Positions 17,977-26,086 of a stretch of DNA of 64,000 bases are shown one piece after another (positions within the stretch are counted from its first letter, which is position 1; each line of letters starts with the position of its first letter). Below the pieces are notes generated by a model. It did not search any database and was not told the DNA's origin. It saw nothing but the letters and a program-made list of their open reading frames with translations. Location: contig JACRBM010000042.1 in the NCBI GenBank assembly GCA_016219275.1, forward strand, positions 1 to 64,000, read 5' to 3'. Made by a program: the position numbers and the translations under genes. The stretch comes from Chloroflexota bacterium. GTDB taxonomy: Bacteria > Chloroflexota > Anaerolineae > UBA4142.

Positions 17977-19644
17977 ATGAAAATCCGCCCCGTCTCGTCC
18001 AACACACTCACGCATTCCGTCGTCGAACGTTTGCTCGGCTTGATCAGCGATGGCACCGTCAAACCCGGCGACAAGATGCCGTCGGAACGCACGCTGATGA
18101 AAAAGCTGGGTGTCTCGCGTTCGACGATTCGCGAAGCGTTGCAAGCGTTGTCGGCGAGCCATATCGTCGAGATTCGCCCCGGCGTCGGTACCTTCGTCCA
18201 CGCGCACGCCCGCGATTTGATTCCGCGCGCGCTCGCCAAAAATCGCGTGCCGAAAGACGCGCGCCCGACGAAAACAATTCTGCCGGCGGGCAATGGCAAC
18301 GGACGCGATCATCTTCTCGGCATCACGCCGATTCCTCCCGCGCCGGAAAAACCGATTCACATTCCGAATCTCAAAAAAGATCGGCTCGGCACATTCGATT
18401 TTATTTCGTGGTGGGAACGCGATAAAGTTCAAGCCGCGCGCGTCATGGTGATTGGCGCGGGCGCGCTCGGCAATGAAGTCTTGAAAAATCTCGCGCTGAT
18501 GGGCGTCGGCAATTTATTCGTCGTGGATTTCGACACGATTGAAGCCGCGAATCTTTCGCGCTCGGTTTTGTTTCGCGCGGAGGATAATGGCAAACCCAAA
18601 GCCGAAGTCGCGGCGCGGCGCGTGAAGGAACTCAATCCCGACGTTCACGTGCAATATTTTCAAGGCGATGTGAATACGGCGCTCGGGCTGGGCGTCTTTC
18701 GCCGGATGGACGCGATCATCGGTTGTCTCGATAACCGCGAAGCGCGGCTCTCGATCAATCGGTTCGCGTATCGGCTGAACAAACCCTGGGTGGACGGCGC
18801 GATCCAGGAACTGTTCGGACTCGTGCGCGTGTTCAAGCCGGGCGAAGGCGCGTGCTATGAATGCACGCTCACCGAGCAGGCGCGCCGCGAAATGTCGTTG
18901 CGTTATTCGTGTCCCCTCCTGGCGCGGCAGAATATCTTGCTCGGCAAGGTGCCGACGACGCCGACGATTTCCGCGATTGTCGCGGGCATGCAATCCCAGG
19001 AAGCGCTCAAGTTGATTCACAACATGCCGGTCGAGGCGGGGAAGGTTTTGCACGTCAACGGATTGACGAACGATTTCCACGCGACGGCGTACACGCCGGA
19101 CGAAAATTGCGAGAGCCATTGGGTCTACGGTGACATCCTCGAACTGGATCGCCAAGCGGCGACGACCACGGTCGCCGAGATGCTGCGTCTCGCGCGCGAA
19201 GCGTTGGGCGATGATGCGATTCTCGAACTCGACCAGGAATTTGTGACGCGGCTCGAATGTCATCAATGCGGGACTGTCGCCGAAATTTTCAAGCCGATCT
19301 CGCAAGTCAATTTCAACGACGGCTTGTGCCCGGGTTGCGGCGAGATGCGCGAAGTGCAAATGATTCACACGATTGCCGGCGATGAACCGTTCTTGAATCG
19401 TCCCTTGCTCGCCGTGGGCGTGCCGCCGCTGCATATCGTGCGCGCGCGTAATGAAAACGAATATCGTTTCTTTGAACTCACCGGCGATCTGGCGGATACG
19501 TTGCATTGGTCACACTTTGAGGGCGGCGCGCGATCGGCGCACGCCTCGCGTGTGCGTCTCCATCCGCGTCCGCAAATCAGACTCGGCGATGTGTTGCCGG
19601 ACGAACCGCCGCCGGTCACACGTCCGCGAGTCGTCGTCCACTGA
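17977..19644 (+). CDS. GntR winged-helix domain fused to a ubiquitin-activating (E1/ThiF-like) enzyme
   Basis: 555 residues from the ATG at 17977. Residues 8-75 are a FadR-subfamily GntR winged helix (MPSERTLMKKLGVSRSTIRE; IRPGVGTFV). After a Pro-rich linker (100-140), residues 148-350 are an E1 adenylation domain with VIGAGALGNEVLKNLALMGV, VVDFDTIEAANLSRSVLF and LDNREARLSINR. ACYECTL at 292-298 followed by RYSCPLL recalls the ECTL and catalytic-Cys region of UBA3/UBA2; Cys312 is the likely thioester cysteine. CxxC pairs at 428/431 and 451/454 form a zinc ribbon. The frame is unbroken with uniform codon use, so the fusion looks real. It should adenylate the Ubl proteins encoded downstream and also bind the operator in front of its own gene. 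Starts upstream (17815) are possible but would include the operator. Confidence 0.9.
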   Translation: MKIRPVSSNTLTHSVVERLLGLISDGTVKPGDKMPSERTLMKKLGVSRSTIREALQALSASHIVEIRPGVGTFVHAHARDLIPRALAKNRVPKDARPTKTILPAGNGNGRDHLLGITPIPPAPEKPIHIPNLKKDRLGTFDFISWWERDKVQAARVMVIGAGALGNEVLKNLALMGVGNLFVVDFDTIEAANLSRSVLFRAEDNGKPKAEVAARRVKELNPDVHVQYFQGDVNTALGLGVFRRMDAIIGCLDNREARLSINRFAYRLNKPWVDGAIQELFGLVRVFKPGEGACYECTLTEQARREMSLRYSCPLLARQNILLGKVPTTPTISAIVAGMQSQEALKLIHNMPVEAGKVLHVNGLTNDFHATAYTPDENCESHWVYGDILELDRQAATTTVAEMLRLAREALGDDAILELDQEFVTRLECHQCGTVAEIFKPISQVNFNDGLCPGCGEMREVQMIHTIAGDEPFLNRPLLAVGVPPLHIVRARNENEYRFFELTGDLADTLHWSHFEGGARSAHASRVRLHPRPQIRLGDVLPDEPPPVTRPRVVVH

Positions 19645-19746: not shown

Positions 19747-20676
19747 ATGCAATTCGATGCCCAAATTATTCCATGGCGCGGTTCATCACCGACGCGCCGC
19801 ACGCAGACAAATCGCATGAGCGCCGAACCACGATCCAAATGGGGTTTTCGCATTCGCTTTGCGCTCGGCGCGATCATCGCGCTCGGCTGGGGTTTCCTGC
19901 TCGGCGTTGCACTCTTGCGCGCGAATGCGACGCTCTCATTCTGGTTTGTCGGCGCAGTCATCCCACTCGCGTTCTTTGGCAGTGCGCTCGCGTGTTTCGC
20001 TTTCCAGCGCGCACTTCCCGAATGGCACACGCTCGTGCGATTACTGGCGGCTCTACTTTTCGCGGCGTTGGCGTTGCCGCTCGGATTAGGGTGGGCGTTG
20101 CGCGAGTGGGAACTCGACGCGAGTTTGTTGCTCGCGGTGACGGGAGAACAACTCTGGGAAATCGAATTTGGCATCGCGATCCTGGGTCTGATCGCCGGGA
20201 CGTGGACGGGCTGGGCGCATCCGCCGCAACGTTGGCTCGCGCGTGGCATCGCGGCTCTGCTCGAGCGTCCGACGCGTTTCTTCTCGGCGCTGTTCGAGTT
20301 TGTCACACGAGTCATCGCCAGTATCGGTCGCGCGATTCTGTGGCTGCCGCTCAAGATCATCGCGCTCGTGCGCGGTTTGATAAACGGGATCGCGTCATTT
20401 TTTAGCGCCATGCGAATTGGGATCGTTCGTTTGATTCCGCGACGAAATCGCGTGCGTTTGCCCAAACCATCGTTATTCCATCGCCACGCCGCGCCTCAAG
20501 CGAATGGCAGTGCACGCATCAAAGCCGTCGTCGAAGAGCGATGTCCGTACTGTCTCGATGTGGTCAAGCGCAATGATCCACGCGGGATTAAAGTGTGCGA
20601 GGTGTGTCACACGCCGCATCACGCGGATTGTTGGGCGATCACCGGCAAATGCCAGGTGCCGCATCTCAATACCTAG
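19747..20676 (+). CDS. membrane-anchored prokaryotic RING-finger protein (predicted E3-like)
   Basis: 309 residues. Four hydrophobic spans lie at about 37-58, 62-85, 94-115 and 139-158, then a basic amphipathic stretch (170-250). A C-terminal zinc domain follows: Cys266-x2-Cys269, Cys284-x2-Cys287, His291/292-x2-Cys295, Cys302 and His306, within ERCPYCLDVV and CEVCHTPHHADCWAI. This spacing and the HHADCW block match prokaryotic RING/treble-clef domains found with E2 enzymes. The finger faces the cytoplasm if both ends are inside. It could recruit the E2 to membrane substrates. The start is uncertain: ATG at 19816 (MSAEPRSKWG) would drop a polar 23-residue leader. Confidence 0.82.
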   Translation: MQFDAQIIPWRGSSPTRRTQTNRMSAEPRSKWGFRIRFALGAIIALGWGFLLGVALLRANATLSFWFVGAVIPLAFFGSALACFAFQRALPEWHTLVRLLAALLFAALALPLGLGWALREWELDASLLLAVTGEQLWEIEFGIAILGLIAGTWTGWAHPPQRWLARGIAALLERPTRFFSALFEFVTRVIASIGRAILWLPLKIIALVRGLINGIASFFSAMRIGIVRLIPRRNRVRLPKPSLFHRHAAPQANGSARIKAVVEERCPYCLDVVKRNDPRGIKVCEVCHTPHHADCWAITGKCQVPHLNT

Positions 20677-20784: not shown

Positions 20785-21648
20785 ATGCCTGATCTCAGTG
20801 TGACTCTCGTTCTACCCGCCGGCGGCGCGCGCACGGCTGAAGTGCCGGACGATGTGCCCGTGCGCGAATTGATGCCGGAACTTATTTCCGTTCTCGAATT
20901 GCCGACGACCGGTCCCGATGGACGACCGATGGGTTATCGGATGGACAGCAAGGCGTTGGGACGCGAATTGCGCGAAGCGGAAACACTGCACGACGCGAAA
21001 ATTCCGCAACATGATCGCTTGATGATTACGGCGGATGTCACTGCCGGCGCGGGCAAGCCCTCCCTGGTTAGCGCGACGCCGCGCTTTCGCCGCCTCAAAG
21101 CCGATCACGACAAGATGCTCGAACTGAAAAAGCAGAGCCAGTTGATTGACTTTGAAGTGGTGGACGCGAAACCTGGGTTTCCGCCGGAAAAATATCTCGT
21201 GACGTTCAAATGCAAAAGCATCGTCGCGGTGGACGCGCAGGGCAATCCGCGTTTCGCCGACAAACACCAGGTCGCGATTTATCTGCACAACGAATATCCG
21301 CATCGCTGGCCCGGCTTGAAATGGCTCACACCGATTTGGCATCCCAACATCAAAGGCGCGAATGGCAGCGTCTGCATTGACGCTGCATGGTGGACTGCCG
21401 CGCGTTCGCTCGACCGGCTCGTGATCATGCTCGGCGAAATGGCGCAATGGAAAAATTTCCACGACGACCCGACCAAGCCGCCGTTTCCCTGGGACGCCGA
21501 AGCCGCCAAGTGGAGTATGAACTATCGTCGCACACACGCAGGTTGTTTTCCGGTGGACACGCGCGAATTGTTGCGCCCGGAACACGCCAAGCCGGCGAAG
21601 AAACCGGTTGCAAAGCTCAAAGCGCGTCCCAAGATCAAACTCAAGTAG
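20785..21648 (+). CDS. ubiquitin-like domain fused to an E2 (UBC) conjugating enzyme
   Basis: 287 residues from the ATG at 20785, 4 bases after TGGAGGA. Residues 1-87 are a YukD/ubiquitin-like beta-grasp domain ending TADVTAG. Residues 105-245 are a UBC fold with the E2 signature HPN (186-188) and SVCID, whose Cys197 is the expected thioester residue. The tail is Lys/Pro-rich. The Ubl part is nearly the same as the free Ubl made by the next gene (about 71 of 87 identical by hand). It should take Ubl from the E1 and pass it on with the RING protein. The fused Ubl could act as a built-in regulator or be released by the JAMM peptidases after TAG. The gap before it (20677-20784) holds a hairpin with arms TTTCCCAGAGTT and AACTCTGGGAAA. 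Confidence 0.9.
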   Translation: MPDLSVTLVLPAGGARTAEVPDDVPVRELMPELISVLELPTTGPDGRPMGYRMDSKALGRELREAETLHDAKIPQHDRLMITADVTAGAGKPSLVSATPRFRRLKADHDKMLELKKQSQLIDFEVVDAKPGFPPEKYLVTFKCKSIVAVDAQGNPRFADKHQVAIYLHNEYPHRWPGLKWLTPIWHPNIKGANGSVCIDAAWWTAARSLDRLVIMLGEMAQWKNFHDDPTKPPFPWDAEAAKWSMNYRRTHAGCFPVDTRELLRPEHAKPAKKPVAKLKARPKIKLK

Positions 21649-21771
21649 CGAACGGCGGATGGCGAATAGCAAATGGCAAATGGCAAATGGAAATTGCCAG
21701 AGGAACCAAGTATCGAGATTGAACGTGTCCACTCCAACTTCCAATCTCGAAATTCAAGTAGGAGGAACAGA

Positions 21772-22038
21772 ATGGCTGATGTACCCGTGACTCTCGTTTT
21801 GCCGGCAGGCGGATCGCGCACGGCAGAAGTGCCGAGCGATGTGCCCGTGCGTGAGTTGATGCCGGAACTCGCGTCGTCACTGCAATTGCCGACGACGGGA
21901 CCGGACGGCAGACCGATGGCATATCGGATGGATAGCAAGGCGCTCGGACGCGAACTGCGCGAAGACGAGACGCTTTCCGCCGCGGGCGTTCCGCAAAATG
22001 ATCGCCTGATGCTGACCGCCGATGTGACCGCGGGCTAA
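21772..22038 (+). CDS. free ubiquitin-like protein (YukD-like beta-grasp) ending in Gly
   Basis: 88 residues, ATG at 21772, with AGGAGG 7 bases upstream. The protein is a stand-alone copy of the Ubl domain fused to the E2: VTLVLPAGG, DVPVRELMPEL, LPTTGPDGRPM, and the end TADVTAG followed directly by the stop. A C-terminal Gly without extension means it needs no processing before adenylation by the E1. It ends in AG rather than the GG of eukaryotic ubiquitin. It is not ThiS or MoaD by sequence. Probably the modifier that is conjugated. Confidence 0.88.
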   Translation: MADVPVTLVLPAGGSRTAEVPSDVPVRELMPELASSLQLPTTGPDGRPMAYRMDSKALGRELREDETLSAAGVPQNDRLMLTADVTAG

Positions 22039-22150: not shown

Positions 22151-23269
22151 ATGACTGAGATTGAAACGTATCGCGCGCTGTCCATCGCGCCGACCCAGGT
22201 AGAGAACGCCGCGCCGGTCTTGTTCGAATTGATCGGCGATTCGACCGAGATTGGTTCGGCGGACGACAACGCGATTGTGCTCGCGAATCCCAACGTCGCG
22301 CTGCATCATCTCGAAGTGCGCCGCGTAGATGGGCGCGATCACTTGCTCATCAACTTGAGCGAACGGCGGCGCGCGCGCGACCTGACCTGGTTCAAATATC
22401 GCCGGGGCGATGCGTATTGGTGTCCGCGTCACGGCAGTATCGCGCGGCTCGATGCGCGGGGTTGGTGCGCGAAATGCCGCACGCGGCGCGGCTCGCTGTG
22501 GTTGATGCGTCCGCTCACACCGGGGGATGCGTTCGACGTGGGACGCGCGTTTCGCGCGACGTATCTCGTGCCAGAACGCGCGAATCAAACCAAACTGCCG
22601 CCGCGCCAAGTTCCCCCGCGCGATGCCTTTGACCGACCGCGTAAAATCGCGATTCCGACGACTGCACCGCAAATCGCGACCCAGGACTTGCCGACCGATG
22701 ATTCGAATCTGTGGCGTTGGCAACCGGCGGAGGCGCCGTTTCCGATCTTTTTGCATCAGCGCGTCAACGTGGATGTCACGCGCCACGCGCGCCAGAATCG
22801 TGATCGCGAAGTGGGCGGCGTGTTGATTGGCGAGGTCTGCCGCGACCAGGATGGGCATCTGTTCGTCGTCGCGTCGCACGCGATCAAAGCCGAATTCGCG
22901 CAAGAATCGCGTGGACAGTTGACCTTTACACACAACACCTGGCTCAAGATTCATCACACGTTGGAAGCGCAATTTCCCGGCAAACTGATTGTCGGTTGGT
23001 ACCATACGCATCCAGGGTGGAGCATTTTTCTATCGGACTGGGATTTATTCATTCATCAAAATTTTTTCAAACAACCCTGGCAAGTCGCGCTCGTCATAGA
23101 CCCATCGCTAGATCGCGCCGGTTTCTTTGTGTGGAAAGATAATCAGGTTTGCAACCCGCAAGCCCCGGTTGAGCCGTTTCGACTCGCCGAAGTAGAATGG
23201 TCGGATATCGCGCGACCACGCGTGCGGATCAAGTTGACCGATCCGCATGGCGCATCCAAGGTCAAATGA
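22151..23269 (+). CDS. FHA-like / zinc-knuckle / JAMM (MPN+) isopeptidase
   Basis: 372 residues. An FHA-like N-terminus (about 25-80: TEIGSADDNAIVLANPNVALHHLEVRR) would bind phosphothreonine partners. A zinc knuckle follows (Cys91, His94, Cys106, Cys109). The C-terminal JAMM domain (about 200-330) has catalytic Glu220 in REVGGVLIGE, His285 and His287 in WYHTHPG, Ser295 and Asp298: a complete zinc metallo-deubiquitinase signature. It would remove or process the Ubl. It lies between the free Ubl and a second JAMM gene, in the same direction with short gaps. No strong ribosome site is visible before the ATG at 22151. Confidence 0.88.
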   Translation: MTEIETYRALSIAPTQVENAAPVLFELIGDSTEIGSADDNAIVLANPNVALHHLEVRRVDGRDHLLINLSERRRARDLTWFKYRRGDAYWCPRHGSIARLDARGWCAKCRTRRGSLWLMRPLTPGDAFDVGRAFRATYLVPERANQTKLPPRQVPPRDAFDRPRKIAIPTTAPQIATQDLPTDDSNLWRWQPAEAPFPIFLHQRVNVDVTRHARQNRDREVGGVLIGEVCRDQDGHLFVVASHAIKAEFAQESRGQLTFTHNTWLKIHHTLEAQFPGKLIVGWYHTHPGWSIFLSDWDLFIHQNFFKQPWQVALVIDPSLDRAGFFVWKDNQVCNPQAPVEPFRLAEVEWSDIARPRVRIKLTDPHGASKVK

Positions 23270-23287: not shown

Positions 23288-23944
23288 ATGACAACCCGAA
23301 TCAAGTTACTCGACTGGGAACCGGCGACCATCTGCGAAGCGCCGATGCCGCTCGACGACGCGTTGCGTTGGAATTCACGATACGAAGCCGCGGTGAACCC
23401 GCGTATCGCAATCTTTTTCGCCCAGTCCGCGTACATCAAGTGCATCGAACACACGCGCAGCGATATGGATAGCGAGGTCGGCGGCGCGCTCATCGGCAAG
23501 GTGTGCATAGACCCGCAAACGGAACAGCAATACATTCTGATTCAGGACGTTATCCCCGCGCTCTACACTCAAGCCGGCGAAACACACGTGACCTTTACGC
23601 ACGAAACGTTGATCCACCTGAACACCGAACTGGAAGACCGCTTTCCCGGCAAACGCATGGTCGGTTGGTACCACACGCATCCGCGTCTCGGCGTGTTCAT
23701 GTCCGGTTACGATACCTGGTTGCATCGGCATTTCTTCCACGATTCGACCCAGGTCGCGCTCGTCGTAGACCCCGAGCGCAACCAAGGCGGCTTTTTCTGT
23801 TGGAGCGCGCAAGGCGACTTGGATCCGGTCAATTACACCGGGTTTTACGAGTGGAGTGATCGGAACGATGACAGCATTATCGGATGGACGAACGTGTCGC
23901 CGGTCGTGAATGGCGCGGAGTTGGATCTGGTGGCGGTGGCGTGA
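23288..23944 (+). CDS. JAMM/Mov34 metallopeptidase, second copy
   Basis: 218 residues, with GAAGGAG upstream and 18 bases after the previous gene. The JAMM domain is complete: Glu63 in SEVGGALIGK, His129 and His131 in WYHTHPR, Ser139 and Asp142. It aligns closely with the JAMM half of its neighbour, including the RFPGK lead-in, so the two arose by duplication. It lacks the FHA and zinc parts. Two active peptidases suggest different tasks, for example Ubl-E2 cleavage and substrate deconjugation, but this is inference. Confidence 0.9.
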   Translation: MTTRIKLLDWEPATICEAPMPLDDALRWNSRYEAAVNPRIAIFFAQSAYIKCIEHTRSDMDSEVGGALIGKVCIDPQTEQQYILIQDVIPALYTQAGETHVTFTHETLIHLNTELEDRFPGKRMVGWYHTHPRLGVFMSGYDTWLHRHFFHDSTQVALVVDPERNQGGFFCWSAQGDLDPVNYTGFYEWSDRNDDSIIGWTNVSPVVNGAELDLVAVA

Positions 23945-23991: not shown

Positions 23992-24852
23992 ATGAGTTTG
24001 CGAATGCGCGTTTATTATTACGCGGTGCTGGGTGCGCTGGGCGCGCTCATCGGTTGGCGCATCAGTGACACGCTTGGATTCATGCGCGGCGTGAATGTAT
24101 ACGTGAACGATCTCGTGCTGGGCGGCATCATCGGCTTGTGCCTGGGTCTCTTGATCGGCGCGAGCGAGGGATTGTTGGCGCGCTCGTGGTATCGCGCGGC
24201 GCGTGCGGGCGCGCTCGCCGGTGGCATTGGATTGCTCGCCGGCGCGATTGGTTTGCCGGTTGGCGAATTCGTCTTCCAAATCACCGGCGGCGAATTGATC
24301 GGACGCGCGCTGGGGTGGGCGTTGTTTGGCGCGCTCATCGGTTTGTCCGAAGGCGTCACGAGTGGAACACAAATGTGGAAAGGCGCGGTCGGCGGCGTGC
24401 TGGGTGGACTCCTCGGCGGCATTGTGCTGTTCGTTTTGCAATCGCTCATCGGCGCGACGGTCATCGGCAAGATGCTGGGACTCGTCTTGCTCGGCGCGGC
24501 AGTCGGCGTGTTCATCGCGTTGATCGTCGTTCTGCTCTCGCGCGCGTGGCTCGAAGTGGTGAGCGGCAAGTTAAAAGGCACCGAGTTCATTCTCGACAAG
24601 TATCTGCACGCGCACGGACCGGCGGCGATCATCGGGAGCAACGATTTCAAAGCGGACATCGCGTTGCCCGATCCTGGGATCGCGCCGCAGCACGCGCGCT
24701 TGAAAGGCGCGGGCGCGTACTTTGTCATCGAAGATATGAGCATTGGCAAAGGTACGTTCGTGGATGGAAAAAAAGTTGAGGCCGCGCGTCTGGCGAACAA
24801 CGCGTCCATCCGGGTCGGCAACACGATGATGATTTATCACGAACGACATTAG
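23992..24852 (+). CDS. polytopic membrane protein with C-terminal FHA domain
   Basis: 286 residues. Residues 1-190 are Gly/Ala-rich hydrophobic spans with glycine-zipper-like patterns (LGGIIGLCLGLLIGA, GGVLGGLLGGIVLF), about six segments. Residues 195-285 form a cytoplasmic FHA domain: IIGSNDFKADIALPDPGI, APQHARL, GKGTFVDGKKV, ASIRVGN. It would be a membrane receptor for threonine-phosphorylated proteins. A ribosome site AAAGGAG precedes the ATG. No kinase is encoded nearby. Same operon as the JAMM genes. Confidence 0.85.
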   Translation: MSLRMRVYYYAVLGALGALIGWRISDTLGFMRGVNVYVNDLVLGGIIGLCLGLLIGASEGLLARSWYRAARAGALAGGIGLLAGAIGLPVGEFVFQITGGELIGRALGWALFGALIGLSEGVTSGTQMWKGAVGGVLGGLLGGIVLFVLQSLIGATVIGKMLGLVLLGAAVGVFIALIVVLLSRAWLEVVSGKLKGTEFILDKYLHAHGPAAIIGSNDFKADIALPDPGIAPQHARLKGAGAYFVIEDMSIGKGTFVDGKKVEAARLANNASIRVGNTMMIYHERH

Positions 24853-24874
24853 CCACACCCTTAAGGGTGTGGCT
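24851..24874 (+). terminator. perfect hairpin overlapping the FHA gene stop
   Basis: AGCCACACCC and GGGTGTGGCT form a 10-bp stem with a TTAA loop, starting inside the stop codon of the FHA gene and ending 9 bases before the next start. There is no T-run, so it may act as an RNA stabiliser or translational boundary and not as a full terminator. Confidence 0.6.
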
Positions 24875-24883
24875 AAAAGGACG

Positions 24884-26086
24884 ATGAAAATGAAAACCTG
24901 GTTTCGATCATTCATCCTCGCGTGCACGATGGCGCTCGTCGCGACGATAAACACATACGCGCAAACGCCGGTCGTCATCAATGTGACCCAAGTGGACACC
25001 TCGCGCTTTCCGCAAGTAGATGTGTACATTTCGGTGACGGACGCGAATGGCAATCCGGTACGAAATGTGCCGGCAAGCGCGCTGCAAGTTCAAGAAAACG
25101 GCAAGACGGTCGCGGCAACGGCGACGACGCGCTCCGGCGACCTGGGTCCAGTGAGTACGATCCTCATCGTAGATCGCAGCGGTAGCATGGCGCGTAGCGG
25201 CAAGATGGACGGTGCGAAGCAAGCTGCGACGACGTTCGTGAATCAAATGCGTTCGGGTGATCGCGCCGCGTTGGTGCAGTTCGACACGGAAATCGAAACT
25301 CTGCAATCATTGACCGACAACAAGAACGCGCTGCTTGCCGCAATTCCAAAACTCGTCCCGCGCGGTAACACGGCGATGTACGACGCGCTCGGTCAAGCGA
25401 GCAGGTTTTTCGAATCGGCGCAGGGACGCAAAGCGGTCATCGTCGTGACGGATGGCATGGACAACGCGAGCAACCTCAGCCGCGATGCGATGTTGAATTC
25501 CGCGAATTCGAGCGGTTATTCGATCTACACGATTGGTCTGGGCGCGCAAGCGGTGGGTACGAATAGTCAGGAAGGCATTGACGAGCCGGTGCTCCAAGAG
25601 ATCGCGCGCGCGTCGTTGGGCGAATACTATTACGCGCCGGACGCGAGTCAACTCGGCACGCTGTATCAGCAAATCGCGTCGCGCATTCAAAACGAGTACA
25701 AGTTGACGTACACCTCGACTGCCGCGCTGCGCGATGGATTGAAACGCGCGATTGTGGTGACCGCGCCGGGCTTGGGCACGACGCGCGCGGATTACAATCC
25801 GGGCGGCGTGATTCCCGAAGTTGAGCCGCAAGGATGGTCGTGGGTGTGGTTTATGCTCGCGTTGATTCTGCTCGTCGCGCTGTTCTTTGCGCCGCAAGGA
25901 GCGCGTTGGGTGTTCGCGCGCGCGACGCCCGCGCCCGCACCAAAGTCGCGAGTGCGATTGACGGAGGGCGCAACGACCCCCGCGCCAAGCTCACCGCGTC
26001 CCTCGCGCATCAAGATCAAGAAGCCGGCAACCGCGGATGCGACGCGGCAAAAGTTGCCGTGGGACGAGGAGCCATCCAAGCATTGA
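24884..26086 (+). CDS. secreted, membrane-anchored von Willebrand factor A (VWA) domain protein
   Basis: About 400 residues. The ATG at 24884 or 24890 opens a signal peptide (FILACTMALVATINTYAQ). A short N-terminal beta domain is followed by a VWA domain (about 85-275) with a complete metal-ion site: DRSGSMARS, Thr in GNTAMYD, and VVTDGMDNAS. Near 320-340 is a membrane span (WFMLALILLVALFF), then a basic Pro-rich cytoplasmic tail. VWA domains bind proteins through Mg2+. It could be the outside partner of the membrane RING/FHA proteins, but only neighbourhood supports that. Confidence 0.85.
   Translation: MKMKTWFRSFILACTMALVATINTYAQTPVVINVTQVDTSRFPQVDVYISVTDANGNPVRNVPASALQVQENGKTVAATATTRSGDLGPVSTILIVDRSGSMARSGKMDGAKQAATTFVNQMRSGDRAALVQFDTEIETLQSLTDNKNALLAAIPKLVPRGNTAMYDALGQASRFFESAQGRKAVIVVTDGMDNASNLSRDAMLNSANSSGYSIYTIGLGAQAVGTNSQEGIDEPVLQEIARASLGEYYYAPDASQLGTLYQQIASRIQNEYKLTYTSTAALRDGLKRAIVVTAPGLGTTRADYNPGGVIPEVEPQGWSWVWFMLALILLVALFFAPQGARWVFARATPAPAPKSRVRLTEGATTPAPSSPRPSRIKIKKPATADATRQKLPWDEEPSKH

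Follow-up and report, generated by a model that had tools for sequence, protein, structure and literature searches.

A ubiquitin-like protein encoded both free and fused to an E2 enzyme in a Chloroflexota operon, and the likely maturation of the fusion by a JAMM protease of the same operon

The locus studied here encodes two closely similar ubiquitin-like proteins (Ubls), one as the N-terminal domain of a ubiquitin-conjugating (E2) protein and the other on its own, which raises the question of how old this pair is and whether the fused copy is ever released. It lies in a window of 64,000 nucleotides from a Chloroflexota bacterium (class Anaerolineae; GenBank assembly GCA_016219275.1, contig JACRBM010000042.1), and all the features of the window described below are on the plus strand. 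The initial annotation had reported 71 identical residues out of 87 between the two copies, and an ungapped alignment confirmed the pair to the residue (72/88 when Met is included, and 204/264 nucleotides). A repeat search that took no account of genes returned a single family, formed by positions 20785–21048 and 21772–22035 (77%), whose limits run exactly from the ATG to the Gly88 codon. Both copies share the ending TADVTAG, also as annotated; in the free protein, which as encoded in this genome needs no processing, the stop codon follows directly, and in the fusion the residues AGKPSL stand behind the terminal glycine.

Upstream of the pair is the gene of an E1 (17977–19644), the product of which combines an N-terminal GntR winged helix, a ThiF adenylation domain and a C-terminal region (Pfam: GntR, 4.9e-21; ThiF, 1.9e-58). 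UBA7 and UBA1 are the closest solved chains (1e-29), and these matches suggest Ubl activation as its role. It is followed by a gene (19747–20676) for a protein with a hydrophobic N-terminal part and a C-terminal Prok-RING_1 domain scoring barely above the cut-off (29.3 against 29.1 bits), which is the E3 candidate and is encoded upstream of the fusion in 31/31 well-covered loci. The fusion itself (20785–21648; 287 amino acids from an ATG start) matches YukD at 40.0 bits and UQ_con at 39.3 bits, the Pfam cut-off being 27 bits for each; its Ubl domain (Met1–Gly88, 20785–21048; YukD, 6.8e-10) is one unit of the repeat and ends in TAG, and its E2 domain (21079–21648; UQ_con, 6.2e-10) carries an HPN motif at residues 186–188, Cys197 and a basic C-terminal tail. 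The free Ubl (21772–22038; 88 amino acids, VTAG and then the stop; YukD, 5e-11, 43.6 bits) is followed by two JAMM genes. The first (22151–23269; JAB, 1.9e-12) encodes a protein with the motif HTHPGWSIFLSDWD and a weak FHA-like N-terminal part (16.3 bits, below the cut-off of 20.7), and the second (23288–23944; JAB, 8.2e-9) one with the motif HTHPRLGVFMSGYD, which is the candidate processing and deconjugating protease. Next come a membrane-type protein with a C-terminal FHA domain (23992–24852; FHA, 1.4e-10) and a VWA-domain protein (24869–26086; VWA, 8.6e-21), each found in 30/31 well-covered loci.

E1, RING, E2 and JAMM genes occurred together in 31/31 well-covered loci, and the only YukD matches (two) and JAB matches (two) in the window's own genome all fall within this operon. 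No proteasome was found in that genome, so that the operon would have a non-proteasomal role or depend on another protease. PADLOC gave generic E1–E2 and JAB matches and a weak, partial match to BilD in the window (27.4 bits), with none for the Ubl or E2 proteins, and we therefore rejected assignment to a known defence-system family. The GntR-type DNA-binding winged helix at the N-terminus of the E1 (17977–18220) was present in 31/31 well-covered fused loci; it was looked for in the E1s of the f37 family, in which Ubl and E2 are separate proteins, and was absent. With such a domain, the E1 may regulate the operon that encodes it.

Prokaryotic operons with E1, E2, RING and JAB proteins and a YukD-like Ubl are said to have been described by Burroughs, Iyer and Aravind in 2011, and we take the present operon to be a member of that class. 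It has the same parts, namely a ThiF-type E1, an HPN-type E2, Prok-RING_1, JAB and a YukD-like Ubl. In the Caldiarchaeum system, as set out in the sections of the reports drawn on here (PMC6043591, PMC5654768), a JAMM gene likewise lies beside E1, E2 and RING genes, and CsRpn11 cuts its Ubl precursor, CsUb-pre, after the last glycine; that precursor carries a nine-residue extension behind Gly-Gly, whereas the present one carries an E2 passenger behind Ala-Gly. The Bil system, in the portion of the source cited (PMC11354881), resembles it in that a JAMM protein (BilC) exposes the C-terminal glycine of a bacterial Ubl (BilA), but BilA has two Ubl domains, compared with the single domain here, BilB is an E2 with a CEHH motif, and that portion lists no RING. 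A polyUbl–E2-like fusion (Iyer 2006, PMC1779556) also places a Ubl and an E2 fold in one chain, with JAB and E1 nearby; the passage on this arrangement (type 6e) calls the E2-like domain inactive, whereas H186, P187, N188 and C197 were invariant in 43/43 aligned fusions of the present kind, Cys197 being assigned as the catalytic residue from the motif. A full-text literature search returned no paper on a Chloroflexota Ubl–E2 fusion accompanied by a free twin, and none for the combination of Anaerolineae, ubiquitin-like and ubiquitin-conjugating; the arrangement may be new in print.

The pair recurs across the Anaerolineae, and its carriers include the cultured Leptolinea tardivitalis (L064) and Pelolinea submarina (L066). 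Screening 84,980 species genomes yielded 49 loci, and the comparison set comprised 47 fusion loci (46 of these and the window), 49 loci with a free copy and 45 within-genome pairs. Class-wide, 54 of 396 genomes matched the fusion query and 16 had the fusion, with the free copy also present in 16/16. Where the sequence extends more than 1.5 kb beyond the fusion (45 loci, the window included), a free Ubl was present in 45/45, which shows that the pairing is not chance.

The high identity of the two copies had been taken to suggest a recent duplication or gene conversion, and the first of these did not hold up. In the window pair, 19/44 fourfold sites differ and dS is 0.86 (NG86) or 1.6 (YN00), synonymous sites being near saturation. 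Alignment of Ubl pairs from related genomes, which had been proposed as a check, gave within-genome identities of 0.65–0.83 (median 0.72, 45 pairs), with the window pair second highest at 0.818. On a tree of the Ubls, a single branch set off all the free copies in 78% of bootstrap trees when an outgroup was included and in 66% when it was not, a split by type that was seen in 0/500 shuffles; support for the branch itself is modest (72/65 with the outgroup, 68/46 without) because only 88 columns were available. The outgroup consisted of the distant f37 Ubls on a branch of length 5, and we therefore did not use the rooting to say whether the fused or the free form came first. Grouping the window's fused and free copies as sisters was rejected (AU p 8e-5), and with it a recent duplication of the window pair. 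The divergence and the separation of fused and free copies on the tree show instead that the duplication is old, and it most likely predates the split of the carrier lineages.

It might still be argued that TAG has been kept in the fusion only through gene conversion between the copies, or because they separated recently, and within-genome pairs are indeed slightly more alike than cross-genome pairs (amino acid identity 0.722 against 0.704; nucleotide identity 0.690 against 0.658), the window pair ranking near the top. However, the two window copies share no identical run longer than 15 nucleotides, below the cross-genome 95th percentile of 20, and the separation by type on the tree, the rejected sister grouping and the near-saturated synonymous sites all stand against it. 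As a general cause of TAG retention this explanation is largely refuted, and we regard it as highly improbable. A recent gene conversion in the window pair is thus not supported. Joining every copy, fused or free, from the window and its near relatives L032–L037 in one clade was not rejected (AU p 0.24), and an older conversion or exchange may have taken place in their common ancestor.

In the tail of the fused copy, T86-A87-G88 (21040–21048), with the proposed cut after G88, is invariant in 47/47 fusions, and each of these three residues is encoded there by all four of its codons. When mapped on a tree of the E2 portion, the TAG codons underwent 55 nucleotide steps and no amino acid step, compared with about 11 amino acid steps predicted from the Ubl average (394 per 1925), and the three positions after TAG underwent 15, 21 and 26 amino acid steps. 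The linker from TAG to the anchor (21049–21078, AGKPSLVSAT preceding PRFRRL in the window) is variable, with 6–11 residues across the 47 fusions. Because 33/88 Ubl columns are invariant among the fusions, three invariant tail columns alone would have about a 5% chance of arising, and what carries weight is therefore how the tail contrasts with the linker, together with the absence of amino acid steps. In the fusion as modelled with AlphaFold (43 rows; mean pLDDT 75.7, pTM 0.56), residues 86–96, between the last Ubl strand (77–84) and the first E2 helix (99–117), have pLDDT values below 50 and are predicted to be disordered, which makes a folding role for TAG and the linker unlikely; low-confidence parts of the model around 192–195 and 226–235 were left out of the interpretation. 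An internal translation start for the E2 was considered and rejected, since an in-frame start codon occurs in the linker in 14/47 fusions and none has a 4-base SD core.

The E2 domain, which matches E2s in Foldseek, also exists without a Ubl attached. Locus L074 has a separate E2 starting MTVRVTDSPRV and one Ubl ending in TAG, with no fused Ubl and one JAMM, and L081 encodes its E2, starting MKVGPGESPHI, apart from a Ubl that ends TAG-RQL. Both E2s start eight residues before the PRxRRL-type anchor, within the range of linker lengths in the fusions, and because each begins at an ATG of its own and has its own anchor sequence we read them as unfused genes and rejected a frameshift or assembly error. 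In the f37 family the VTAG end is kept, although its Ubls are only about 40% identical. One to five residues follow TAG in 4/14 unfused single-Ubl loci (RQL in L081, and RS, QGRRA and A elsewhere), and the free Ubl of L057 likewise has residues after TAG; if these Ubls are used, such tails must come off.

A JAMM gene follows in 45/45 fused loci in which the downstream sequence exceeds 1.5 kb. Both JAMM proteins of the window have the motif H-T-H-P-x7-S-x2-D, the zinc motif is kept in all the compared JAMM proteins uncut by a contig end (that of L040 is cut), and CsRpn11 (6fjv) is the nearest solved chain to the second JAMM of the window (6.9e-8). Enzymes of this kind act on linear fusions: the excerpts cited describe cutting of CsUb-pre and CsUb-GFP by CsRpn11 (PMC6043591, PMC5654768) and of linear Sumo-cGAS-cGAS by the bacterial JAMM Cap3 (PMC10097602). 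Some bulky residues behind the cut site stop CsRpn11, according to the section cited (PMC6043591), and the finding of A, G or S as the first residue behind TAG in 46/47 fusions matches this intolerance.

Several observations count against a cut. Instead of Gly-Gly, the tail has Ala-Gly in each of the 47 fused and the 49 free copies; in the sections of the reports drawn on, a Gly77Ala change in CsUb makes cutting by CsRpn11 much slower (PMC6043591), and a Giardia Ub-eS31 fusion with Ala at 75, and so with an Ala-Gly junction, is reported as uncut (PMC11354881). The presence of JAMM proteins does not track the fusion: they are also encoded in all 14 unfused loci and must have another job too, most likely deconjugation. 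Two JAMMs were found in 7/45 fused loci compared with 14/14 unfused single-Ubl loci, and JAMM number was rejected as a sign of fusion processing for want of correlation. Lastly, L074 manages with no fused Ubl.

On balance we read the locus as a complete bacterial Ubl conjugation operon with two old, separately conserved Ubl paralogues, and we consider it probable, with moderate confidence, that the Ubl–E2 precursor is cut after Gly88 by a JAMM of the operon. The cut after TAG by such a JAMM is likely in view of the conservation of the tail, the predicted disorder around it, the unfused homologues and the precedents in other systems. One Ubl is translated already mature and the other as the N-terminal half of the precursor; the cut would free the C-terminal glycine of this second Ubl and leave an E2 beginning a few residues before its first helix, like the natively unfused E2s of the family. 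The E1 would adenylate both Ubls for transfer to Cys197 of the E2, the RING protein may help to place them on targets, and the JAMM would also take conjugates apart. The fusion would then be an analogue of the eukaryotic ubiquitin–ribosomal-protein precursors, with a conjugating enzyme as its passenger. In ubiquitin-L40 and ubiquitin-S27a, as treated in the part of the source cited (PMC11354881), one modifier is likewise fused to a functional partner and another gene supplies it otherwise. The passengers there are different, and the Ubls of the window differ from one another at 16/88 residues. Eukaryotic ubiquitin fusions rely on other proteases and have near-identical ubiquitin in all the genes.

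A more elaborate proposal, which we offer tentatively, is that in Anaerolineae two distinct modifiers pass through one E1, E2 and RING protein, that the precursor is an E2 blocked by a Ubl propeptide, and that the JAMM acts as an activator, with 1:1 release, and then as an eraser. We found in the literature no description of a protease-gated conjugation cascade of this kind for bacteria, and no published cleavage of such a Ubl–E2 fusion.

Alternatively, the fused Ubl might be an integral part of the E2 that is never cut and provides docking or activation, for E1 recruitment, E2 backside binding or chain growth, so that conjugation is confined to the free Ubl. Fused and free copies are told apart by six positions, mainly 15 (A in fused and S or T in free) and 36 (hydrophobic, L, V, M, I or A, in nearly all fused and polar, mostly S or T, in nearly all free), and the hydrophobic residue at position 36 could pack the fused Ubl on an uncut E2. 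Moreover, the fused copy was never the sole Ubl wherever downstream sequence could be examined, and Ubl fusions to other partners that look permanent do exist. However, a permanent fused domain gives no reason for a C-terminal tail to stay, and TAG, which would be expected to be needed for activation only, is found without replacement throughout the fusions in a disordered stretch. In the fusions that look permanent, TAG was found at the domain end in 0/18 YukD-like Ubls with non-E2 partners (that of L114 reads TTGG), a comparison that provides contrast rather than proof because the controls are only distantly related and come from loci of other types; Pfam domains were scanned for L111 and L116. 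We therefore think an uncut domain rather unlikely. The same differences between the copies bear on the purpose of a cut, which had been suggested to be the supply of more Ubl. This is doubtful, as the fused copy forms a separate paralogue that has conserved residues of its own and, in loci with enough downstream sequence, never stands alone, and the long conservation of two versions points to different uses, not merely to more Ubl. Lys27 is present in 34/49 free copies and 1/47 fused copies, and Lys56, a candidate chain or structural lysine, in 47/47 fused and 49/49 free copies.

The conservation of Lys56 would also suit a fused Ubl that acts as a chain acceptor, with this lysine taking the free Ubl, the E2 carrying the growing chain and the JAMM trimming it. 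We find this improbable, because Lys56 is kept equally in the free copy, where it may be structural, and because the invariant TAG of the fusion is left without a reason. Both Ubls score above the Pfam YukD cut-off, and the operon could on that account be viewed as an accessory of type VII secretion in which the Ubl serves not as a modifier but as a structural subunit of the YukD/EsaB type. This is barely credible and was rejected: the genome has no WXG100 (PF06013) match, the four conjugation and JAMM gene types stay together in every well-covered locus, and the TAG tail is absent from the 18 other YukD-like fusions.

If the cut by the operon JAMM is real, bacteria share with eukaryotes the trick of maturing a modifier from a fusion, here with the conjugating enzyme as the passenger, and two modifier paralogues are kept in one pathway. 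The locus would in that case offer a compact, single-operon E1/E2/RING/JAMM cascade that could be reconstituted and used to ask why a second ubiquitin-like protein persists across a bacterial class.

Other arrangements of these domains were also seen. At L095:3-743 (G039) the order is reversed, the E2 being followed in frame by a Ubl that ends in AMAG and a stop, with the start of the E2 cut by the contig end; the glycine there is free without a cut, and this is the sole case of its order in 396 genomes. At L094 and L109–L112 a YukD-like Ubl with no TAG tail is found on proteins of about 365 amino acids, that of L111 having FHA and TIR domains, for which signalling or defence is a possible role. 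At L113–L125 a YukD-like Ubl lies near the start of proteins of 311–614 amino acids, with WD40 repeats in that of L116. Finally, near an E2-like match in L126 (G635) there is a distant Ubl-like sequence that ends in EAG-ASR, perhaps another precursor.
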